From positions 1 through 24,061 of the IMG/VR virus record IMGVR_UViG_3300024299_000060: a DNA stretch of 24,061 nucleotides; one strand, given 5' to 3'. This stretch comes from a virus. Below the pieces are notes generated by a model, which saw only the letters and a program-made list of their open reading frames with translations, was not told the origin of the DNA and made no database searches. A program made the translations under genes and the position numbers. Positions 723-22,386 of this stretch are shown here, piece after piece; position 1 is the stretch's first letter, and each line of letters opens with the position of its first letter.

Positions 723-780
723 TTGACATTTGGTCAGAAATAGTGCATGATCAAATAGTAAGATCAAGAACCAAGAGAGA
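723..780 (+). promoter_or_regulatory. Early promoter cassette, copy 1 (sigma-70 type)
   Basis: TTGACA (723-728), a 17-nt spacer and CATGAT (746-751), followed by a conserved downstream segment with TGATC-N9-GATCA dyad and a purine-rich GAGAGA that serves as ribosome binding site. The first 43 bases are identical to those at 4424 and 22321 and differ at 3 positions from the copy at 3064. Start of transcription is expected near 758. The interval 637-722 shows no gene. Confidence 0.85.
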
Positions 781-784
781 ATAT

Positions 785-3028
785 ATGTATATGTCAGTTC
801 AAAAATCAATCGAGTCAGTAAGTCGTCTGACCAACCTGTTTGCCTCCGAAAATATGACGGTTCGTCATGTTCCCGGTTGTAAAACAGCCTCCATTAATCT
901 CAAGGATCGCGTTGTGACTCTTCCAGTTTGGAAAGATTGCCCGCCTGAGACAATGGATGTTTTGACTTCCCATGAAGCCTACGGTCACGGAATCAATACT
1001 CCGGCCGAAGGATTGCATGACGCAATTATGCCCGCCGGTAAATACAAAGGCAAGGGCTACAAATCCTTTCTGAACATTGTTGAAGATGCTCGTATTGAGA
1101 AATTGACAAAACGTCATTTTCCCGGTCTGAAGCGTTCTTATCATCTTGGCTACAAGTGGATGATCGAACAAAATTTCTTCGGTGAAAATATTGTCGGTCG
1201 TCTTGAAACAATGAAGTTGATTGACCGGTTCAATGTGGCTGCAAAGGCCGGAGCCAACCTTGATATTTCTTTTGAGGGTGATGAAGCCGTTTATTGGGAC
1301 CGGTTGATGAAACTGGAAACTTTTGACCAAGCCGTCGCTCTTGCTGACGAACTTTTTGAAAAGCAAAAAGAAGAAAACGAGAACGACCAAGAAGACGATT
1401 CTCCCGAAACGGATTCTTCCGGTGAAGAAGCGGGCGAGCCTGAAGAGGGTGAGCCTGAAGAGTCTGAAGAAGATGATTCAGAAGATGAAGACGACACCGA
1501 AACCAGCGGTTCTACCGATGAAGAAGGTGACGACGATTCAGAAGAAGAAGACGACGACGAGCCTAAAGAATCTTCCGGTGGAAAATCTGAAGAGGGTGAA
1601 GACTCTGTTGTAGAAAAAGATGTTGAAGAATCTGACGACGATCCTATTGCTGAAACCGACGAACTTTTCACGGATGCTGTTGAGCAAATGGCTGATACCA
1701 ATGCTTCAGAAATTAAGTATGTTTCTGTTCCTGATATCAACACCGATTTGATTACCGTGCCTTGGAATGTTGTTATTGAGGAAACCAACAAATATGTTGA
1801 AGCATATTACGCCGAGGATGTATGGGGAAAAGTTGACCAGGATTTGATTCAGTGGCGTGCTGACAATAACAAAGCCATTAATTGGATGGTTAAAGAATTC
1901 GAAATGAAGAAAGCGGCTGACGAACTTTCGCGGACTCGTTCTTCTAAGTCTGGAATTCTTGACCCACTCAAGTTGCATTCTTACCAGTTCAATGACGACA
2001 TTTTTGCGAAAGCCGAAACCGTTGTTGGTGGCAAGAACCACGGACTTGTTATGTTCATTGATTGGTCTGGCTCAATGACAACCAACATGCGTGGCACCAT
2101 CGAGCAACTTTTGAACCTCGTGACTTTTTGTCGTCGTGTTTCAATTCCTTTTGAAGTTTATGCCTTCACCGACCGTCCTGAAATGGAAAAGTTGACTGGC
2201 GGACGGAACGACATAGATGGTCAACCTTTCAACCTGATGCAGCCTTCACCCAAAGACGGTGAATATGTGTTTGATGAATCTTTCCGGTTGATGAATATGT
2301 TTTCAAGCAAAATGTCTGGAAACGATTTTCGCCAGATGATGAAAACAATGATGATGCTGGCGCGTCGTGCTGGTGGTGCAGTTCAACTTGGCGGAACGCC
2401 TTTGAATGATACCATTATTGCTGCGGCTGATGTTGTCGAGCGGTTCACCAAGCGGAACAATGTTCAAGTTGTCAACACCGTTTTCTTGACGGATGGCGAT
2501 AGCATGTACGGCGGCTTCATGAACGGTGAACACAAGGATCACGTTATCGCTTCTAGTTACAGTTTTCGTAACAAGACGTTGGTTCTGACCGATAAGAAGC
2601 GTGGTTATATCAATGAGTTGGTTGACCAAAACCCTACTCGGCAGTTCCTTGATTATTTCCGGGCTGTTTCTGGAAATGAAGTTATGGGCTTTTTCCTGAC
2701 CAATAAAAACAAAAAGTCTTTTATTGATGCCTTCGATTCTCGGCACGGCTGTGCCTATACCGGTCGTCGGAACCAGTTCCAAACACCTGGCGGTCAAGAG
2801 TCTTACCAGGAATTCCGTAGCGCCAACTTTACTATCGTAAAGGACCAAGGCTACTCTGAATTGTATTTCATTGCCGATGGCGATTCGCTTCGTTCTGGAA
2901 ATACTGACCTGACCGGCGTTACTGCCCAGTCAACTAAAGGGCAAGTTCGGAAAGCGTTCATGGATTCAACTAAAGGTTTGAAAGAAAAGCGTGTTCTTCT
3001 GACCCGGTTCGTTGAAAAAATCGCATAA
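785..3028 (+). CDS. cobT: CobT-like VWA-domain protein with acidic linker
   Basis: Predicted 747-aa protein. The open frame continues upstream to a TTG at 719, but that lies in the promoter, so ATG 785 is chosen (ATG 791 is equally possible; GAGAGA lies just upstream). Three regions are visible. Residues about 1-190 contain HEAYGHG (63-69) and NIVEDARIE (E100, D101), resembling the metallopeptidase-like half found with some VWA proteins. Residues about 195-290 are an extremely Asp/Glu/Ser-rich linker. The C-terminal half is a VWA domain with an intact MIDAS: DWSGS (D426, S428, S430), T538 in GGTP and D570 in LTDGD. CobT with CobS normally drives magnesium/cobalt chelatases; phage homologues are annotated as cobaltochelatase subunits, but no large chelatase subunit (CobN/ChlH) is present here, so a remodelling role with the neighbouring AAA+ protein is more plausible. 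The gene has its own promoter and hairpin. Confidence 0.8.
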   Translation: MYMSVQKSIESVSRLTNLFASENMTVRHVPGCKTASINLKDRVVTLPVWKDCPPETMDVLTSHEAYGHGINTPAEGLHDAIMPAGKYKGKGYKSFLNIVEDARIEKLTKRHFPGLKRSYHLGYKWMIEQNFFGENIVGRLETMKLIDRFNVAAKAGANLDISFEGDEAVYWDRLMKLETFDQAVALADELFEKQKEENENDQEDDSPETDSSGEEAGEPEEGEPEESEEDDSEDEDDTETSGSTDEEGDDDSEEEDDDEPKESSGGKSEEGEDSVVEKDVEESDDDPIAETDELFTDAVEQMADTNASEIKYVSVPDINTDLITVPWNVVIEETNKYVEAYYAEDVWGKVDQDLIQWRADNNKAINWMVKEFEMKKAADELSRTRSSKSGILDPLKLHSYQFNDDIFAKAETVVGGKNHGLVMFIDWSGSMTTNMRGTIEQLLNLVTFCRRVSIPFEVYAFTDRPEMEKLTGGRNDIDGQPFNLMQPSPKDGEYVFDESFRLMNMFSSKMSGNDFRQMMKTMMMLARRAGGAVQLGGTPLNDTIIAAADVVERFTKRNNVQVVNTVFLTDGDSMYGGFMNGEHKDHVIASSYSFRNKTLVLTDKKRGYINELVDQNPTRQFLDYFRAVSGNEVMGFFLTNKNKKSFIDAFDSRHGCAYTGRRNQFQTPGGQESYQEFRSANFTIVKDQGYSELYFIADGDSLRSGNTDLTGVTAQSTKGQVRKAFMDSTKGLKEKRVLLTRFVEKIA

Positions 3029-3054
3029 AAGGTGAGAAATGTGCACCTTTTATG
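3024..3054 (+). terminator. Hairpin overlapping the stop codon of the CobT-like gene
   Basis: Perfect 11-bp stem: CATAAAAGGTG (3024-3034) pairs with CACCTTTTATG (3044-3054) around a 9-nt loop. The left arm contains the TAA stop (3026-3028). The U-rich right arm lacks a long tail, so it may end transcription weakly or protect the 3' end of the message. Confidence 0.6.
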
Positions 3055-3063
3055 TCGATTTCG

Positions 3064-3126
3064 CTTGACATTTGGTCGAAAATAGTGCATGATCAGATAG
3101 TAAGATCAGAAACCAAGAGAGAGAGA
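3064..3126 (+). promoter_or_regulatory. Early promoter cassette, copy 2
   Basis: TTGACA (3064-3069), 17-nt spacer, CATGAT (3087-3092), TGATC-N9-GATCA dyad and GAGAGAGAGA ribosome-binding tract. It differs from the other three copies at three positions within the 43-bp core (AG to GA in the spacer, A to G downstream of the -10). Confidence 0.85.
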
Positions 3127-3135
3127 AAAGAAAAT

Positions 3136-4344
3136 ATGTTAAATCAAGTCCGTACCGATTTCGTTCAAGAAGCCTACAAACGCTTTGGTGAATACATTAG
3201 TATCGCCCAGGCCGATGAAGTCTCCGAGGCCCTCGGCCAGAAGTCTTCATATAACTGGATGAAAAAGTATTCCGCAGGCCGGAACACTCGTAAATTGCCT
3301 TTGGCTGAGGCTGGAGTCCTTGAGGGCCCAGCCGCACTTGTTGTTCCTAACGCAACAGTCGCCATTGCGAATACGGAATCCACCGTAATCGAAAATGTTG
3401 TTTCGATTGAAGAAGCAGCCAAGCCTGCGCCCTCCGTTTTGAAAGTGGTTCAAAATTTGATTCCTAAACGTGACGCACTTTTTGTGCCCTTCGGCTTCGC
3501 AAAACAACTTGAGAAAATTTTCAAGTCTGGAAGGTTCTTCCCTACGTTTATCACTGGTTTGTCCGGTAACGGCAAGACCTATATGATTGAACAGGTCGCT
3601 GCCAAACTTGGTCGGAAGTTGATTCGTACCAACATCACCGTCGAAACCGACGAGGATGATTTGATTGGCGGCTTCCGTCTTGTCAATGGCGAGACAATGT
3701 TTTTCAAAGGCCCAGTTATCAAAGCCATGGAAGAAGGCGCGATTCTCCTGTTGGATGAAATCGACCTTGGTCACCCTTCGAAGATCATGTGTCTTCAGTC
3801 GATTCTTGAGGGCGCTTCGTATTTCATCAAAAAGACTGGTGAGACCGTAGCCCCTGCAAAGGGATTCACGATTGTCGGTACTGCGAATACCAAAGGTAAG
3901 GGTTCAGAAGACGGTCGCTTCATCGGCACCAACGTTTTGAACGAAGCCTTTCTTGAGCGGTTCACCGTTACTGTCGAGCAGGAATACCCTGCCCTGGCCG
4001 TTGAAAAGAAAATCCTTTCGAAGGTTTTCGAATCTCTTGACCTCCCTGGCGACTCAACCTTCATTGACAAATTGACAATGTGGGCCGAGACCATCCGTAA
4101 AACTTTTTACGCTGGTGGTGTTGATGAAATTATTTCAACCCGTCGTCTTGTTCACATTGCGAACACCTTCGCCGTCTTCGGTGACCGTTACGAGGCAGTC
4201 GAACTTTGCCTGAACCGGTTTGATGATGCGACCAAGGAATCGTTCCTGTCGCTTTACTCCGCTACCGACGAGGAAGCCGTTGCGGTTACCGAACCGGATG
4301 ATGCCAGCGGCTTGCATAATGGCGACGACCTTACACCCTTCTAG
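3136..4344 (+). CDS. cobS: CobS-like AAA+ ATPase (MoxR type)
   Basis: Predicted 402-aa protein; ATG 3136 is chosen because the frame upstream of it is the repeated promoter. Residues 1 to about 110 form an N-terminal region with a YKRFGEYISIAQADEV segment and an SSYNWMKKYSAG motif, not recognised as a known fold. The AAA+ core follows: Walker A GLSGNGKT (141-148), an ETDEDDLIGGF loop, Walker B LLLDEID (about 203-209), sensor GTANT, and arginine-finger region NEAFLERF. This is the CobS/MoxR pattern. Such ATPases form hexameric rings that work with a VWA partner, and the gene just upstream supplies one with an intact MIDAS. The two genes nevertheless have separate promoters. ATPase identity is secure. 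Real cobalamin synthesis is unlikely, since no other pathway gene is here; a target-remodelling or anti-host role is inference. Confidence 0.88.
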   Translation: MLNQVRTDFVQEAYKRFGEYISIAQADEVSEALGQKSSYNWMKKYSAGRNTRKLPLAEAGVLEGPAALVVPNATVAIANTESTVIENVVSIEEAAKPAPSVLKVVQNLIPKRDALFVPFGFAKQLEKIFKSGRFFPTFITGLSGNGKTYMIEQVAAKLGRKLIRTNITVETDEDDLIGGFRLVNGETMFFKGPVIKAMEEGAILLLDEIDLGHPSKIMCLQSILEGASYFIKKTGETVAPAKGFTIVGTANTKGKGSEDGRFIGTNVLNEAFLERFTVTVEQEYPALAVEKKILSKVFESLDLPGDSTFIDKLTMWAETIRKTFYAGGVDEIISTRRLVHIANTFAVFGDRYEAVELCLNRFDDATKESFLSLYSATDEEAVAVTEPDDASGLHNGDDLTPF

Positions 4345-4374
4345 GTCTCTCTTACATTTCTCTCCCTAGAAGGG
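4336..4374 (+). terminator. Hairpin spanning the stop codon of the CobS-like gene
   Basis: CCCTTCTAGG (4336-4345) pairs perfectly with CCTAGAAGGG (4365-4374) around a 19-nt loop. The left arm includes the TAG stop (4342-4344). It directly precedes a stronger terminator hairpin and may act with it or guard the mRNA end. Confidence 0.45.
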
Positions 4375-4375
4375 C

Positions 4376-4420
4376 GCTGCCGGAAGTTTCTCGCTTCCGG
4401 CAGCATTTTATCAATTTTTA
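4376..4420 (+). terminator. Rho-independent terminator after the CobS-like gene
   Basis: Perfect 11-bp GC-rich stem, GCTGCCGGAAG (4376-4386) with CTTCCGGCAGC (4394-4404), a 7-nt loop and a T-rich tail (ATTTTATCAATTTTTA). This is the clearest intrinsic terminator in the window and lies 4 bp before the next promoter's upstream flank. Confidence 0.88.
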
Positions 4421-4423
4421 GTA

Positions 4424-4483
4424 TTGACATTTGGTCAGAAATAGTGCATGATCAAATAGTAAGATCGAAAACCAAGAGAGAGA
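4424..4483 (+). promoter_or_regulatory. Early promoter cassette, copy 3
   Basis: TTGACA (4424-4429), 17-nt spacer, CATGAT (4447-4452). The 43-bp core is identical to copies 1 and 4. GAGAGAGA (4475-4482) sits almost against the ATG at 4484. Here the downstream dyad ends GATCG instead of GATCA. Confidence 0.85.
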
Positions 4484-6208
4484 ATGACTTATTTGAAAAA
4501 CGCCTGGGACATTCCTGATATTCTTCGGGTTAACCAACAAAAATATCTCGTTGAACCCGCCCTTAGATTTATTGATAGCAATGAATCTGATGGCCAGATT
4601 GGAATCCTTAGCGCCGATACCGGCAATGGTAAAACATATACCGTTATTAATGGCATCATCCCCGCAATAGTAGTCAAGAAGATCAACGCAGGTGTTGACC
4701 TTAAGAAAGAGAGCCTGAATTTTATTATTCTTGCGCCGTCGACCGAATTAGTTGATGAAATTTACGAGACGGTATATGAAACCTATACCTCACATGAATA
4801 CAACATTAGTTCTCCTGGGCGAGTAGATGTTTTCAACAATTTCATCGGTATCAAAAAGACAGGTATCAACATTGTTGTGACAACGATTCAGACATGGCTC
4901 AATAACTATGCCAACTTGAACGCTAGTTTCACTGGATTGTTTTGGGATGAAATCCATCATGGTGGTTGTCCTAGTGACTTGTTGTATTATTTCGACTTGG
5001 GGCATGGTAGCGCCGGGGGGCACTCAAACTATGAAGCCCGGTGGTATAATTCTGTTATAGATGGCGATGTGGAATACCGTTTCGGTTTCTCTGGCACCCC
5101 GATGACCAGTCATATTGAAAGCAAAGAAAAATATGTGATGGTATCCAATGATATGCCGTCGGCATCATATTCGAAGCCCGCCGTCTTTGACCCGATTTTT
5201 ACCACGACCTATTCAGATAGTACAGAAGAACTGGTCAAAACAATCTTGGTCAAAAACGCTATTGTGAAATATTTGAAAGAGGAGAAGCCCGAAGCCCTTA
5301 AGAATTTCCACCAAACAAAGGTCACTGGTATTCTGAAAGTTGGTTCGAAAGCTATGCCATACAACATATGGCATGCCAGAAGAGATATGAAAAAATTCAT
5401 AAACCAATATCAAAACACCACCATAGAATATGATGGAGTCACATTAAACCTTGAGGGTGGCAACTTCGCTGTAAATAACCATAACGAGCGTAGTAAGGGC
5501 TATGATACATCAAGGGAAGTTTTTTGTGATCTGGCTGACAACAAATCCGATTTGTTATTTGCTATTGTTGTTGAACTTGGCAGTGTGGGTATCAATGTAC
5601 CAAATCTAGGTGCGGTTGCCTTGGCAAGACGTATTGAAAATTCTGCAAGTGTATATAATAACTCGATTCAATATTACGGTCGCTTGAACCGTTGTGAACG
5701 AGATTTCTATTTTACAGCCGGTGAATTTTCAGAGGCTTCAGCCGAAGACCGCGAAACGATTTACAATTATTTCATGGCAACCAACTGCGTTCAGCCTATT
5801 GGGATAACTTCTTCTGGGTCAATCGAAGGGGTCAAAACTTTTGTTGATAAGAATGTGCCATCGGATGCTGTTTGGATAACTCTAAATTCCTTAAATGATG
5901 TGGGTTCAAATTTGGTTGGTTCGTCAACCTCGGGCTCCTCTACAGACCGAGATACCATCTATCAGAAGTACAAAAAGAATCGTTGTGAGATTCCTGGTTG
6001 TGATTGTTACGAGCGATATGTTTCTAGTCCTGATGAGCCATCATTTTCAGAAATGCGTTTCAATGAACGCCTGCATGTTTATAAGGCAATTCTTGATGTT
6101 GACCATATTGATGGTGACAGGGATAATATGGTTCCATCTAATCTTTGGACCATTTGTTCACCACAGCATAAGTTGAAATCTTATGAAAACGGCGATTACA
6201 TATCATAG
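4484..6208 (+). CDS. SF2 helicase fused to C-terminal HNH nuclease domain
   Basis: Predicted 574-aa protein. The helicase part shows motif I ADTGNGKT (44-51), motif II DEIH (155-158), motif III SGTP (203-206), a motif V-like GSVGINVPNLG and motif VI QYYGRLNR (396-403), typical of DEAD/DEAH-like ATPases that move along or open DNA. The C-terminal part has C501, C506 and C508 (CEIPGCDC), then VDHIDGDRDN (D540, H541), N553 and CSPQH (C558, H562): an HNH nuclease pattern with zinc-binding cysteines. One polypeptide therefore carries an ATP-driven motor and a DNA-cutting domain. It is not evidently T4 UvsW or Dda. Own promoter and terminator; third gene with the same promoter cassette. The helicase call is secure, the HNH call strong on motif grounds, the biological role unknown. 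Confidence 0.85.
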   Translation: MTYLKNAWDIPDILRVNQQKYLVEPALRFIDSNESDGQIGILSADTGNGKTYTVINGIIPAIVVKKINAGVDLKKESLNFIILAPSTELVDEIYETVYETYTSHEYNISSPGRVDVFNNFIGIKKTGINIVVTTIQTWLNNYANLNASFTGLFWDEIHHGGCPSDLLYYFDLGHGSAGGHSNYEARWYNSVIDGDVEYRFGFSGTPMTSHIESKEKYVMVSNDMPSASYSKPAVFDPIFTTTYSDSTEELVKTILVKNAIVKYLKEEKPEALKNFHQTKVTGILKVGSKAMPYNIWHARRDMKKFINQYQNTTIEYDGVTLNLEGGNFAVNNHNERSKGYDTSREVFCDLADNKSDLLFAIVVELGSVGINVPNLGAVALARRIENSASVYNNSIQYYGRLNRCERDFYFTAGEFSEASAEDRETIYNYFMATNCVQPIGITSSGSIEGVKTFVDKNVPSDAVWITLNSLNDVGSNLVGSSTSGSSTDRDTIYQKYKKNRCEIPGCDCYERYVSSPDEPSFSEMRFNERLHVYKAILDVDHIDGDRDNMVPSNLWTICSPQHKLKSYENGDYIS

Positions 6209-6209
6209 G

Positions 6210-6240
6210 AAAATACCCACTTTGTTGGTATTTTTGTATT
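6210..6240 (+). terminator. Intrinsic terminator after helicase-HNH gene
   Basis: AAAATACC (6210-6217) pairs with GGTATTTT (6227-6234), 9-nt loop, continuing into a T-rich tail TTTTTGTATT. It begins 2 bases after the TAG stop and its tail merges with the -35 box of the next promoter. Confidence 0.7.
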
Positions 6241-6267
6241 GACATACTGTGAGTTTTACTATATAAT
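6239..6267 (+). promoter_or_regulatory. Consensus sigma-70 promoter
   Basis: TTGACA (6239-6244), 17-nt spacer, TATAAT (6262-6267): both boxes match consensus. The start of transcription should be near 6274, giving a leader of about 26 nt with GAGGA (6289-6293) before ATG 6300. A TGTAAATAATG sequence (6279-6289) also fits a possible late-promoter motif. Confidence 0.88.
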
Positions 6268-8785: not shown

Positions 8786-9674
8786 TTGTATCCTTCCGCA
8801 AAGGTTGAAGGACACATTTCAAGCCTTTGTCGATAAACAAGATGTACCTAATCTCCTATTGACTGGTGGTCCTGGCTGCGGTAAGACAACCGTTGCTAAG
8901 GCTATGTTGAAGGAAATGGGTGCCGACAGTTATTTGGTCAACGGTTCGCTTGATGTAAACAAAGACAAACTCCGCACCGACATTTCTTCTTATGCGTCTT
9001 CTGTCTCTTTGATGGGTGGCAAGAAATTCGTTATCATTGATGAGGCGGATTATCTTGACCCTAACTGGGTACAGCCAGGACTGCGTGGCTTTGTCGAAGC
9101 ATTCTCAAAAAACTGTGGCTTCATCCTGACCTGTAATTATGTGAACAGGCTTATCGAACCCATTCAATCCCGTATGTCGATCATTGATTTCAAAATGACG
9201 AATAAAGACAAGCCAGAAATGGCAATGGGCTTTATGAAACGGGTCATGACTATTCTTGACACCGAGAATGTTGAGTATGACAAGAAGGTTGTGGCTGAAA
9301 TTATTCAGAAACATTTTCCCGATTATCGCCGGGTCTTGAATGAACTTCAACGGTACTCTGCGGCTAACGGCAAGATTGATTCGGGTCTTCTAGCCAATTT
9401 GTCAGAAGTCAAAATGAAGGAATTGATGGTCGCTCTGAAGAATAAGGAATTTACGGTCGCTCGTAAGTGGGTAGCCCAAAACCTTGACAACGATTTCAAC
9501 ACCCTTATGCGCCAACTCTATGACACAGCCCACGAATATATTGAACCGCATGACATTCCCGAATTGGTGGTGCTTATGGCAGATTACCAATATAAGGATG
9601 CCTTTGTGGCTGACAAGGAGGTTAACACCATGGCCTTGTTGGTAGAAATTATGGCATCGGCGGATTTCAAATGA
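8736..9674 (+). CDS. 44: Clamp-loader large subunit (T4 gp44-like)
   Basis: Predicted 312-aa AAA+ protein (T4 gp44 is 319). LWVEAYRPQKIADCILP matches the T4 start (EQKYRPSTIDECILP). Walker A GGPGCGKT (44-51), Walker B VIIDEAD (D102, E103) and the SRM arginine finger (R146; SRC in other clamp loaders) are intact. With gp62 it forms the ATP-driven loader that opens gp45 onto primed DNA. AGGA lies upstream of the ATG within the preceding small frame. Overlaps the next small gene by 4 nt (ATGA). Confidence 0.94.
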   Translation: MQETLWVEAYRPQKIADCILPQRLKDTFQAFVDKQDVPNLLLTGGPGCGKTTVAKAMLKEMGADSYLVNGSLDVNKDKLRTDISSYASSVSLMGGKKFVIIDEADYLDPNWVQPGLRGFVEAFSKNCGFILTCNYVNRLIEPIQSRMSIIDFKMTNKDKPEMAMGFMKRVMTILDTENVEYDKKVVAEIIQKHFPDYRRVLNELQRYSAANGKIDSGLLANLSEVKMKELMVALKNKEFTVARKWVAQNLDNDFNTLMRQLYDTAHEYIEPHDIPELVVLMADYQYKDAFVADKEVNTMALLVEIMASADFK

Positions 9675-9829
9675 ACACCGTAGATTATTTGAAACGAGAA
9701 ATTCGGTACGCCCAGGAAAAAATTACGAAGATTCAAAACGAATGTAGTCACCCTGAATCGGTAAAGGTTGTAACAGGTTCGACAATCACCTGTGGTTTAT
9801 GCCAAAAGAAATGGACAGAAAAACTGTAA
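9671..9829 (+). CDS. Small zinc-ribbon-like protein
   Basis: A 52-aa protein starting at an ATGA overlap with the clamp-loader gene. The first half is a charged helix (YLKREIRYAQEKITKIQNE), the second carries C25, H27, C41 and C44 (NECSHPES...TCGLCQKKW), a probable single zinc site. The overlap implies coupled translation with gp44. Small helix plus zinc-ribbon proteins recur in T4-like genomes; no function is known to me. It could bind DNA or a replication protein, which is inference. Confidence 0.75.
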   Translation: MNTVDYLKREIRYAQEKITKIQNECSHPESVKVVTGSTITCGLCQKKWTEKL

Positions 9830-10493: not shown

Positions 10494-10507
10494 AAAGGAG
10501 TGATTTG

Positions 10508-11089
10508 ATGAAATTATATCAACAGGAATATGGTTATAATTGTATCCCAGAAAAAGAAAAAATTGAAGAATTATATTCTAAATACACCCAACAGGAGATT
10601 GCAGATCTATTCGGTACCTATAAAACCAGAGTAAGGAAATGGCTGAAACATTATGATATTGCGATTCGTCCACCGGGCGGCGGTAATAATAAACAATTCG
10701 AAATAAACAAAGAAACATTACAAAAATTAGTAGCGCATAATAAAATTACGAACCGCCAGATAGCAGAAAAATTTGGTTGTTCGATTTCAAATATAACAAG
10801 ATTGTTAAAGAAGTTTTCCATTACCAGAAATTATAATAAAACCGAACGGCAAAAATATATTACTAAAGTTTACTACCTAACAGAAAAAATTTATGCTGAA
10901 AACATTGCCATACTTAATCCAGATAACAAACCAAGAACTTTATGCGGGGTATCTGGCGGATATCAAGTAGACCATATCAATCCTGTTATCAATTGTTTTC
11001 GTGAGGGTATCACTCCAGAAATATGCGCGTCAATTAGTAATTTACAGTTTATACCCTGGGAAGAAAATTTAAAAAGAGGGGTGGTATAA
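10508..11089 (+). CDS. HNH homing-endonuclease-like protein with helix-turn-helix repeats
   Basis: Predicted 193-aa protein; ATG 10508 is preferred over a TTG at 10505 (AAAGGAG 7 nt upstream). Residues about 10-55 (YTQQEIADLFGTYKTRVRKW) and about 65-105 (ITNRQIAEKFGCSISNITRL) are two helix-turn-helix units of the kind that read DNA in homing enzymes. The C-terminal segment GYQVDHINPVINCF...ISNLQFIPWEENLKRG is an HNH nuclease core. The gene is clearly more A/T-rich than its neighbours, with many ATA, AAA, TTA codons, and sits between gp62 and regA, which are adjacent in T4. This points to a mobile endonuclease gene acquired recently. It carries its own promoter and its stop overlaps the regA start by one base. 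Confidence 0.85.
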   Translation: MKLYQQEYGYNCIPEKEKIEELYSKYTQQEIADLFGTYKTRVRKWLKHYDIAIRPPGGGNNKQFEINKETLQKLVAHNKITNRQIAEKFGCSISNITRLLKKFSITRNYNKTERQKYITKVYYLTEKIYAENIAILNPDNKPRTLCGVSGGYQVDHINPVINCFREGITPEICASISNLQFIPWEENLKRGVV

Positions 11090-20225: not shown

Positions 20226-20671
20226 TCGATGTTATTGGAACCAACAAAAAGAAGATAGCCGCAATTCCACCTGCGACGATCTTCTTTGGTTCTCTGCTTA
20301 TGTCACGGCGACTTTCTGATTTGATTCATGTAACCATCAAGCTAGACCCACGACTTGTCGCGGAACATGAGGTCCAGGGCCTTTGTGAATGGGAGGATAC
20401 GAACGATCGACCCAGAGAGTTCACTTTGCATATTGACGCCGGTATGACCATGGCTGATACACTCTCGACAGTAGCCCACGAAATGGTTCACCTGAAGCAA
20501 ATGGCCAAAGGTGAGTTTATGGAATACATCCGCACAGTACAACCCCTGATACGATTTAATAGCCAGAAATACACCTTCGGTGACGACCAGGAGTATTGGG
20601 ATTACCCATGGGAAATTGAAGCGTATGGTCGCCAAATAGGATTATATACGAGATATATGGAGAGAAAATGA
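20219..20671 (+). CDS. SprT-like zinc metalloprotease
   Basis: Predicted 150-aa protein from GTG 20219, which overlaps the previous stop. An in-frame ATG at 20300 would remove the KKKIAAIPPATIFFGSLLMS segment, which looks like the usual start of this family, so the GTG is favoured though no ribosome site is visible. WEDTNDRPREFTLHID and STVAHEMVHLKQMAKGEF carry the HExxH zinc motif, and WEIEAYGRQIGLY the later acidic ligand region. SprT/SPRTN-type proteins bind zinc and, in cells, can cut proteins crosslinked to DNA. ATGA overlap with the methyltransferase. Confidence 0.75.
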   Translation: MLVDVIGTNKKKIAAIPPATIFFGSLLMSRRLSDLIHVTIKLDPRLVAEHEVQGLCEWEDTNDRPREFTLHIDAGMTMADTLSTVAHEMVHLKQMAKGEFMEYIRTVQPLIRFNSQKYTFGDDQEYWDYPWEIEAYGRQIGLYTRYMERK

Positions 20672-21489
20672 AACCTTATTTTCAGAATGATTATGTGACC
20701 CTTTATCATGGTAATTGTGTTGATGTTTTGAATAGTATCGACAGCATCGTTGATGGTGTTGTTACTTCGCCGCCGTATGGCACCCAGAGAAAAGATTTAT
20801 ATGACAGTATCGCAGAGGCTGATTATCCACAATTTACCCTGGATTGGATGAACGCTGTCAGCCTTAGAGAGACTGGTAACATTTTCATTAATATCAGGGA
20901 GAATATCAACAACGGTATTCTGTCTGATTATGTGTTGCGGACCAAGTTGCACCTAAGAGATAATGGTTGGATCGAGCCCGATGAATTGATTTGGATTAAA
21001 CCAGATTCAATGCCTGTTGGGAATAACAAAAGACCCCGAAGATCGTGGGAACGGATTTGTTGGTTTTCTAAAGTGAACCAACCAATCGTGTATCCAAAGC
21101 ATAATGGAAAACCATCGAAGCGAATAGGTTTACCAAAGGGTCAAGCCGGTAAAAATACCCAGCAATGGGGTGCAGGTTATTCAGATGGATTTACGGAAGG
21201 TATGAGTAGGTGTAAAGATTATGTCGAAGTGACGGTTAGCTCTAATGAAAAAACAAATCACCCAGCTACATATCCACCTAAACTGGCTGAATGGATGATT
21301 AAATTGGCTTCGTTGGAGGGCGAGACTATTCTTGATCCTTTCGTGGGGTCTGGTTCTAGTGCAGTGGCTGCGATGAAAACCAAACGCAAACTGATTGGTA
21401 TTGATGCCAAAGAAGAATATATTGAGTTTGCAGCTAACCGAATTTATAAATACAATGAACAAATAGAAAATGAAGTGACACTATTCTAA
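20668..21489 (+). CDS. DNA methyltransferase, beta class (N4-cytosine or N6-adenine)
   Basis: Predicted 273-aa protein. Catalytic motif IV TSPPYG (33-38) comes before the AdoMet motif I DPFVGSG (223-229), the beta-class order. TSPPY is common in N4-cytosine enzymes but also in some N6-adenine ones. The middle has DELIWIKPDSMPVGNNKRPRRSWE, likely target recognition. It methylates DNA, probably to protect phage DNA or mark it for regulation; the site cannot be deduced. ATGA overlap with the SprT gene and TAATG overlap with a probable nuclease gene make one unit. Confidence 0.9.
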   Translation: MKPYFQNDYVTLYHGNCVDVLNSIDSIVDGVVTSPPYGTQRKDLYDSIAEADYPQFTLDWMNAVSLRETGNIFINIRENINNGILSDYVLRTKLHLRDNGWIEPDELIWIKPDSMPVGNNKRPRRSWERICWFSKVNQPIVYPKHNGKPSKRIGLPKGQAGKNTQQWGAGYSDGFTEGMSRCKDYVEVTVSSNEKTNHPATYPPKLAEWMIKLASLEGETILDPFVGSGSSAVAAMKTKRKLIGIDAKEEYIEFAANRIYKYNEQIENEVTLF

Positions 21490-22320: not shown

Positions 22321-22386
22321 TTGACATTTGGTCAGAAATAGTGCATGATCAAATAGTAAGATCAATTAGAGAGAAAAGCGAGAGAA
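22321..22386 (+). promoter_or_regulatory. Early promoter cassette, copy 4
   Basis: TTGACA (22321-22326), 17-nt spacer, CATGAT (22344-22349). Its 43-bp core is identical to copies 1 and 3, about 18 kb away. Downstream, GATCA is followed by AGAGAGAAAAGCGAGAG, which serves the ATG at 22389. Confidence 0.85.

Follow-up and report, generated by a model that had tools for sequence, protein, structure and literature searches.

A lineage-wide promoter cassette, a core VWA/AAA+ pair and a probably independent helicase-HNH gene in a fragment of a marine T4-like phage

Three neighboring phage genes, which encode a VWA protein, an AAA+ ATPase and a helicase fused to an HNH nuclease domain, are each preceded by almost the same promoter, and this raises the question of whether they form one functional set. 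The window, which is the stretch of DNA analyzed here, is a whole IMG/VR viral fragment of 24,061 bases. It is highly probable that the locus brings together a lineage-wide promoter of early type, a core chaperone pair and an accessory helicase-nuclease that is placed independently of this pair.

The window contains genes for the gp45 clamp, the gp44 and gp62 clamp loader, the gp43 polymerase, UvsX and gp41. Because of this gene content, the phage was assigned to the T4-like myoviruses, and the window is, judged by its genes, a fragment of a marine member of this group. Its AAA+ protein is approximately 51% identical to that of pelagiphage HTVC008M, which belongs to the Kyanoviridae according to its database record. 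A DNA-level search of phage records found no close relative of the window. IMG/VR metagenome 3300042106 contains a 99.97% identical contig of the window phage (L010), and the nearest relative is L011 (contig G003), with 70-75% DNA identity to the window in the AAA+ gene and in the gene named P1574 (PHROG 1574).

The promoter cassette is a sigma70-like sequence of ~44 bp, TTGACA-N17-CATGATCA-rATAGTAAGATCA, that lies 5' of the VWA, AAA+ and helicase-HNH genes. Its core hexamers are TTGACA and CATGAT with a spacer of 17 bases; next comes a leader rich in purines that contains a ribosome site of the GAGAGA type, and a conserved dyad, TGATC-N9-GATCA, covers the -10/start region. The 31-mer TTGACATTTGGTCnnAAATAGTGCATGATCA occurs exactly four times in the window, always on the + strand, at 723, 3065, 4424 and 22321. 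Copies 1 to 3 (723..766, 3065..3108 and 4424..4467) precede the VWA, AAA+ and helicase-HNH genes, respectively, and copy 4 (22321..22364), overlooked in the initial annotation, precedes a gene for a 65-aa ORFan. When 44 bases are compared with the copy at 723, 44, 43 and 41 positions match in the copies at 22321, 4424 and 3065, respectively, while the next best site in the window matches at 27/44 and the best sites in random windows at 23-25. The description of a near-identical promoter before each of the three genes is thus borne out, as is that of a single coding region per unit, with one ORF each (747, 402 and 574 aa). The gene that follows has a different promoter, a consensus sigma70-like sequence at 6239..6267 on the + strand (12/12 match).

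Cassette copies outside the window were found by pattern scans of IMG/VR, and duplicates were removed before counting. In total, 14 distinct copies are present in the window and related contigs, 4 in the window and 10 outside, and several of the outside contigs come from metagenome 3300042106. An ORF was called downstream of nine of the ten outside copies, and these are small genes, nearly all without a family. The initial annotation had taken the shared promoter to make the three genes a control unit of their own, and this view does not hold for a cassette that lies at 14 sites, mostly before small ORFans. Approximately 43 bases are near-invariant across the copies while the flanks differ, suggesting that the cassette is under constraint and does not reflect recent duplication alone. 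In most relatives, sigma70-like promoters of other sequences precede both the VWA and the AAA+ genes, and the two promoters of one phage are often alike. Since such sharing is common in the phage group, it carries no message about a three-gene system, and the cassette is best read as a lineage-wide promoter and not as the hallmark of a functional trio. In a T4-like phage, a promoter shared as strikingly as this one is the mark of a genome-wide regulon rather than of a gene system.

The cassette is probably the lineage's own promoter of host sigma70 type, reused across the genome and probably early, where "early" is suggested by the promoter type. Repeated early promoters and PeSL of T4-like phages are likewise phage-specific sequences of sigma70 type located before core genes as well as novel ones (Nolan et al. 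2006, PMC1524935), and here too sigma70-like hexamers with 17-bp spacing precede several genes of one lineage. In comparison with these, the near-invariant stretch is unusually long (~44 bp) and includes the spacer and the start region with its dyad. This dyad may bind a regulator. An RNA role for it was rejected, since folding is weak and the 5' arm lies upstream of the expected start. In every cassette of the window, the -10/start region contains two GATC sites, and the window encodes an SPPY-type DNA methyltransferase related to the PvuII and CcrM enzymes (20668-21489). Control by methylation of these sites was set aside as speculation, as the window shows no special avoidance of GATC and the enrichment of this site in the promoters is not independent. 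The most avoided 4-base palindrome of the window is AGCT.

The initial annotation had also placed a hairpin at the stop codon of each gene. Hairpins are strong around the VWA stop codon (3020..3059, z -5.1) and across the AAA+ stop codon (4336..4374, z -4.9; a similar stem is found at the stop codon in L011), which agrees with the description, but the one after the helicase-HNH gene (6209..6235), which has a T-rich tail, is weak (z -2.6) and was equaled by 3/200 shuffles. A further terminator-like hairpin of 12 pairs follows the AAA+ gene (4376..4404, z -5.6) and was the scanner's best terminator; like the others, it lies on the + strand. As the AAA+ gene alone among the three has a textbook intrinsic terminator, their existence as insulated, separate transcripts is something that we infer from the arrangement.

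The third gene (4484..6208, + strand) encodes a 574-aa accessory protein in which an SF2 helicase is fused to a C-terminal HNH domain. SF2 motifs I, II, III, V and VI occur in order (GNGKT at 47, DEIHH at 155, SGTP at 203, GSVGINVP at 366 and QYYGRLNR at 396), and the helicase part matches ResIII at 6.2e-10, placing it in SF2. The HNH part matches PHROG HNH families and Pfam HNH_3, the latter under its cut-off, and carries the HNH motif with zinc-binding cysteines (CEIPGC, DHIDGDRDN and CSPQHK); over 42 aa, the domain is 50-55% identical to phage HNH proteins. The SF2 motifs are collinear with those of T4 UvsW in a weak single-sequence alignment. UvsW-like SF2 helicases and free-standing phage HNH endonucleases differ from this protein in that it unites both domains. 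Searches of phages, plasmids, bacterial genomes and viral contigs found no full-length relative except in the same phage and in one sister phage, and a PDB sequence search returned nothing informative. A structure predicted from the single sequence was unusable (pLDDT 31), and assignment to a defense system was rejected because the PADLOC models gave only weak matches (PbeA and ZorE). The protein is predicted to be an accessory ATP-driven DNA helicase-nuclease whose role would most likely be the processing of phage or host DNA.

The position of this gene suggests that it is placed independently of the pair. It lies between the AAA+ gene and P1574 (6300..7334, + strand), the usual downstream neighbor of the AAA+ gene, and it was found at this junction in 0/71 comparable loci, a count that refers to the junction, as many of the relatives are fragments. 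The only other copy at the junction is in L010, the contig of the same phage. The gap between the AAA+ gene and P1574 is at most 300 bases in 61 of the 71 loci; a minority of relatives have other cargo in this slot, such as short putative 2OG-oxygenase-like ORFs. In L011, a terminator follows the stem at the AAA+ stop codon and is followed directly by the TACTGTGAG leader of P1574, with no helicase gene. On the right, the insert ends near 6239..6267, where TACTGTGAG is common to the window and L011. Contig G003 of this sister phage encodes a 607-aa homologue in which the architecture is the same and full-length identity is 27%; its gene is flanked by gp41 and an SprT-like gene and lies 15,153 bases from where the AAA+ gene ends. 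The gp41/SprT-like junction of the window has no insert, and the two sister phages thus carry helicase-HNH genes at different junctions.

As in a moron, the flanking genes are adjacent in a relative (L011), and the inserted gene has its own promoter, the cassette at 4424, and a terminator-like element, the weak hairpin at 6209-6235 (z -2.6). The atypical composition of lambdoid morons is not seen, with a GC content of 0.407 against 0.427 for the window. The gene thus sits at the AAA+/P1574 junction together with a cassette and a hairpin of its own, and it probably acts independently of the VWA/AAA+ pair. When a two-member helicase-HNH profile was run against 49 records, no other fusion was found, and the only matches were three HNH genes that stand alone, each immediately 5' of VWA. 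It is possible, although we stop a little short of calling it probable, that the helicase-HNH protein and its sister homologue P0001 represent an undescribed family of phage nucleases in which an SF2 helicase is fused to an HNH domain, with genes that lie in different intergenic positions of the replication region from one sister phage to the other and adopt the promoter type found locally. This family of two orphan members, apparently undescribed, is a new but minor result.

How the unit reached its position has two further explanations. The first is that the cassette, together with an upstream stem-loop, is a mobile regulatory element of the PeSL type and that homologous recombination between copies brought in the helicase-HNH unit. 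Of the four window copies, three (3065, 4424 and 22321) combine the promoter with a stem-loop, as does L006:4537, and the inserted unit begins with a cassette after a terminator. Moreover, the contig of the same phage breaks inside a cassette, possibly as an effect of assembly: L010 begins with ~60 unrelated bases (1-62) and then joins the window inside cassette copy 3, a join at a repeat that is possibly recombination or an assembly error. The stem-loop of PeSL cassettes (Arbiol et al. 2010, as cited in PMC4503421 and PMC3950731) is thus present at several copies, but inconsistently so, since a strong one (z -2.8 or lower) accompanies only 4/14 and most copies have no strong stem-loop next to them. 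In addition, no cassette marks the insert on its right side. This explanation is rather unlikely, although it fares best among the rival readings.

The second explanation, which is slightly less likely again, is that the helicase-HNH gene is a selfish gene of the homing type whose HNH domain cuts empty junctions. It accords with the short free-standing phage HNH proteins that are the nearest relatives of the domain, with the different junctions used in the two sister phages and with the further homing-type genes present in these phages. However, the gene lies between genes and interrupts none, its helicase motifs are intact and point to an ATP-driven function, which homing would not require, and its GC content (40.7%) is near that of the window (42.7%). 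Independent placement of an accessory gene is preferred.

Other insertions were observed in these phages. The window encodes an HTH-HNH protein at 10505-11089, after a small clamp-loader gene, with a GC content of 32.5% compared with 42.7% for the window; it is unmatched in L011 in the interval from gp44 to the dUTPase gene and is likely a homing-type insert. In L151 (G003), uvsX is interrupted by what appears by eye to be a split intein (reverse complement of 1608-3760). The N part, beginning CVVPETVIRTQNG, follows MGGG, the C part ends with NGVVSHN before SGLKYS, and an HNH-like reading frame lies between the putative halves. In L011, gp43 is interrupted at 8826-9807 by ~980 bases with a frame that looks GIY-YIG-like by eye and is absent from the window.

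The other two genes belong together. The VWA gene (785..3028, + strand) encodes a 747-aa protein of PHROG 459, annotated "peptidase" (2.6e-172), with an N-terminal zincin-like motif and NIVEDARIE, an acidic linker and a C-terminal VWA domain with the MIDAS motif DWSGSM. The AAA+ gene (3136..4344, + strand) encodes a 402-aa MoxR/CobS-like ATPase of PHROG 249 (2.8e-108; AAA_5, 7.5e-21). A MoxR-class AAA+ gene therefore adjoins a VWA gene with a MIDAS motif, and the two products are a MoxR ATPase and a metallopeptidase-like VWA protein, a real pair that is already known. The VWA gene is followed by the AAA+ gene in 69 fetched loci, and the AAA+ gene by P1574 in 71, with gp45 and gp44 next. The isolates HTVC008M and P-SSM2 keep the order VWA, AAA+, gp45, gp44 with extra genes between. 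From this synteny, VWA and AAA+ appear as the core MoxR-type pair of the phage group. In L036 (7349-10001), the VWA gene is on the strand opposite to the AAA+ gene, so co-transcription of the pair is not required.

The same pair, in the same order and with the same zincin-like N-terminus and C-terminal MIDAS VWA domain, has been described in jumbo phages, where a virion-assembly chaperone was proposed (Iyer et al. 2021, PMC7824862). It is also the "peptidase"-CobS core pair of cyanophages (PHROG 459 and PHROG 249), located near gp45/gp44 as here, and cobS was listed among cyanophage core genes by Sullivan et al. 2010. A PDB sequence search with the VWA protein was uninformative, and its predicted structure (pLDDT 73) gave fold matches to the NorD VWA domain in NorQ complexes and to the MIDAS domain of midasin (MDN1), systems that also share a MoxR-class ATPase with the phage pair. 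What sets the phage protein apart from these is a zincin-like region at its N-terminus, in which relatives have HExxH and EDxRxE. Together, the 69 syntenic loci and the NorD/MDN1 fold matches agree with the earlier proposal that the AAA+ protein works as a MoxR-type ATPase with a VWA partner. By analogy with homologous systems, the AAA+ ring would most likely use the VWA protein as an adaptor to remodel a target protein and, in most relatives, perhaps also to cleave it, during replication or virion assembly.

The VWA protein is only 29-36% identical to its relatives. The H-E..H, N..ED.R.E and MIDAS positions (D-S-S, T, D) are invariant in an alignment of 33 VWA proteins. The window protein, in contrast to the jumbo-phage and cyanophage pairs, has HEAYGH (residues 63-68) where aligned relatives have HExxH. 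This one-residue insertion, which is in frame and unique to the window phage among the aligned proteins, is new but minor. It suggests that peptidase activity may have been lost in this phage.

According to a published proposal, the tailed-virus pair is a viral CobST, in which the VWA protein is CobT, the AAA+ protein is CobS and host CobN is hijacked to raise cobalamin synthesis, with "peptidase" viewed as a misannotation (PMC8651126). CobS indeed ranks first among the solved relatives of the AAA+ protein when multi-domain midasins are left aside, and the VWA protein has a weak match to PHROG 5298 (cobalamin). On the other side, the AAA+ protein scores 69.3 bits with the CobS equivalog model against a cut-off of 558.55, the CobT family of Pfam matches 0/33 VWA proteins, the HExxH and EDxRxE motifs are kept in relatives, and the genomic setting is one of replication genes. 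CobN was not found in the complete relatives HTVC008M and P-SSM2; the window phage is itself a fragment. Since the AAA+ protein is far below the CobS cut-off, no CobT family match exists and complete relatives lack CobN, the data favor a chaperone-peptidase over CobST, which we consider improbable. The view of the initial annotation that cobalamin synthesis is not involved is upheld to the extent that cobalt chelation is doubtful. The conserved HExxH and EDxRxE also bear on the published disagreement between a CobT and a peptidase identity for the phage protein.

That all three genes form one set for DNA processing, anti-host action or exclusion, with AAA+/VWA driving or assembling the helicase-nuclease, is very improbable, because, set against their adjacency and near-identical promoter in the window phage and the presence of an AAA+ gene and a helicase-HNH gene on one contig of the nearest relative, the same promoter precedes many unrelated small genes lineage-wide, the helicase-HNH gene is missing from 71 comparable junctions, its homologue lies elsewhere in that relative (~15 kb away, beside gp41), and complete HTVC008M and P-SSM2 have VWA and AAA+ without such a protein. 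The co-occurrence and order of the three genes in related phages, which had been suggested as a check, thus speak against the set, with VWA-AAA+ in 69 loci and the helicase-HNH gene at none of the 71 comparable junctions. Homologues of this gene that are never near cobS/cobT had been named as evidence to the contrary, and the findings go a long way in this direction. The analysis distinguishes a conserved pair, a MoxR ATPase with a putative VWA peptidase, from an accessory nuclease that is movable.

As the AAA+ and helicase-HNH genes share one replication region in both sister phages, a looser functional link between them is conceivable and may exist. Free-standing HNH genes just upstream of VWA in L016, L019 and L061 were counted against independence; nothing else in the fetched loci matches the HNH domain of the fusion as closely. 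Another free-standing HNH gene lies directly 5' of VWA in L141 (123-398).
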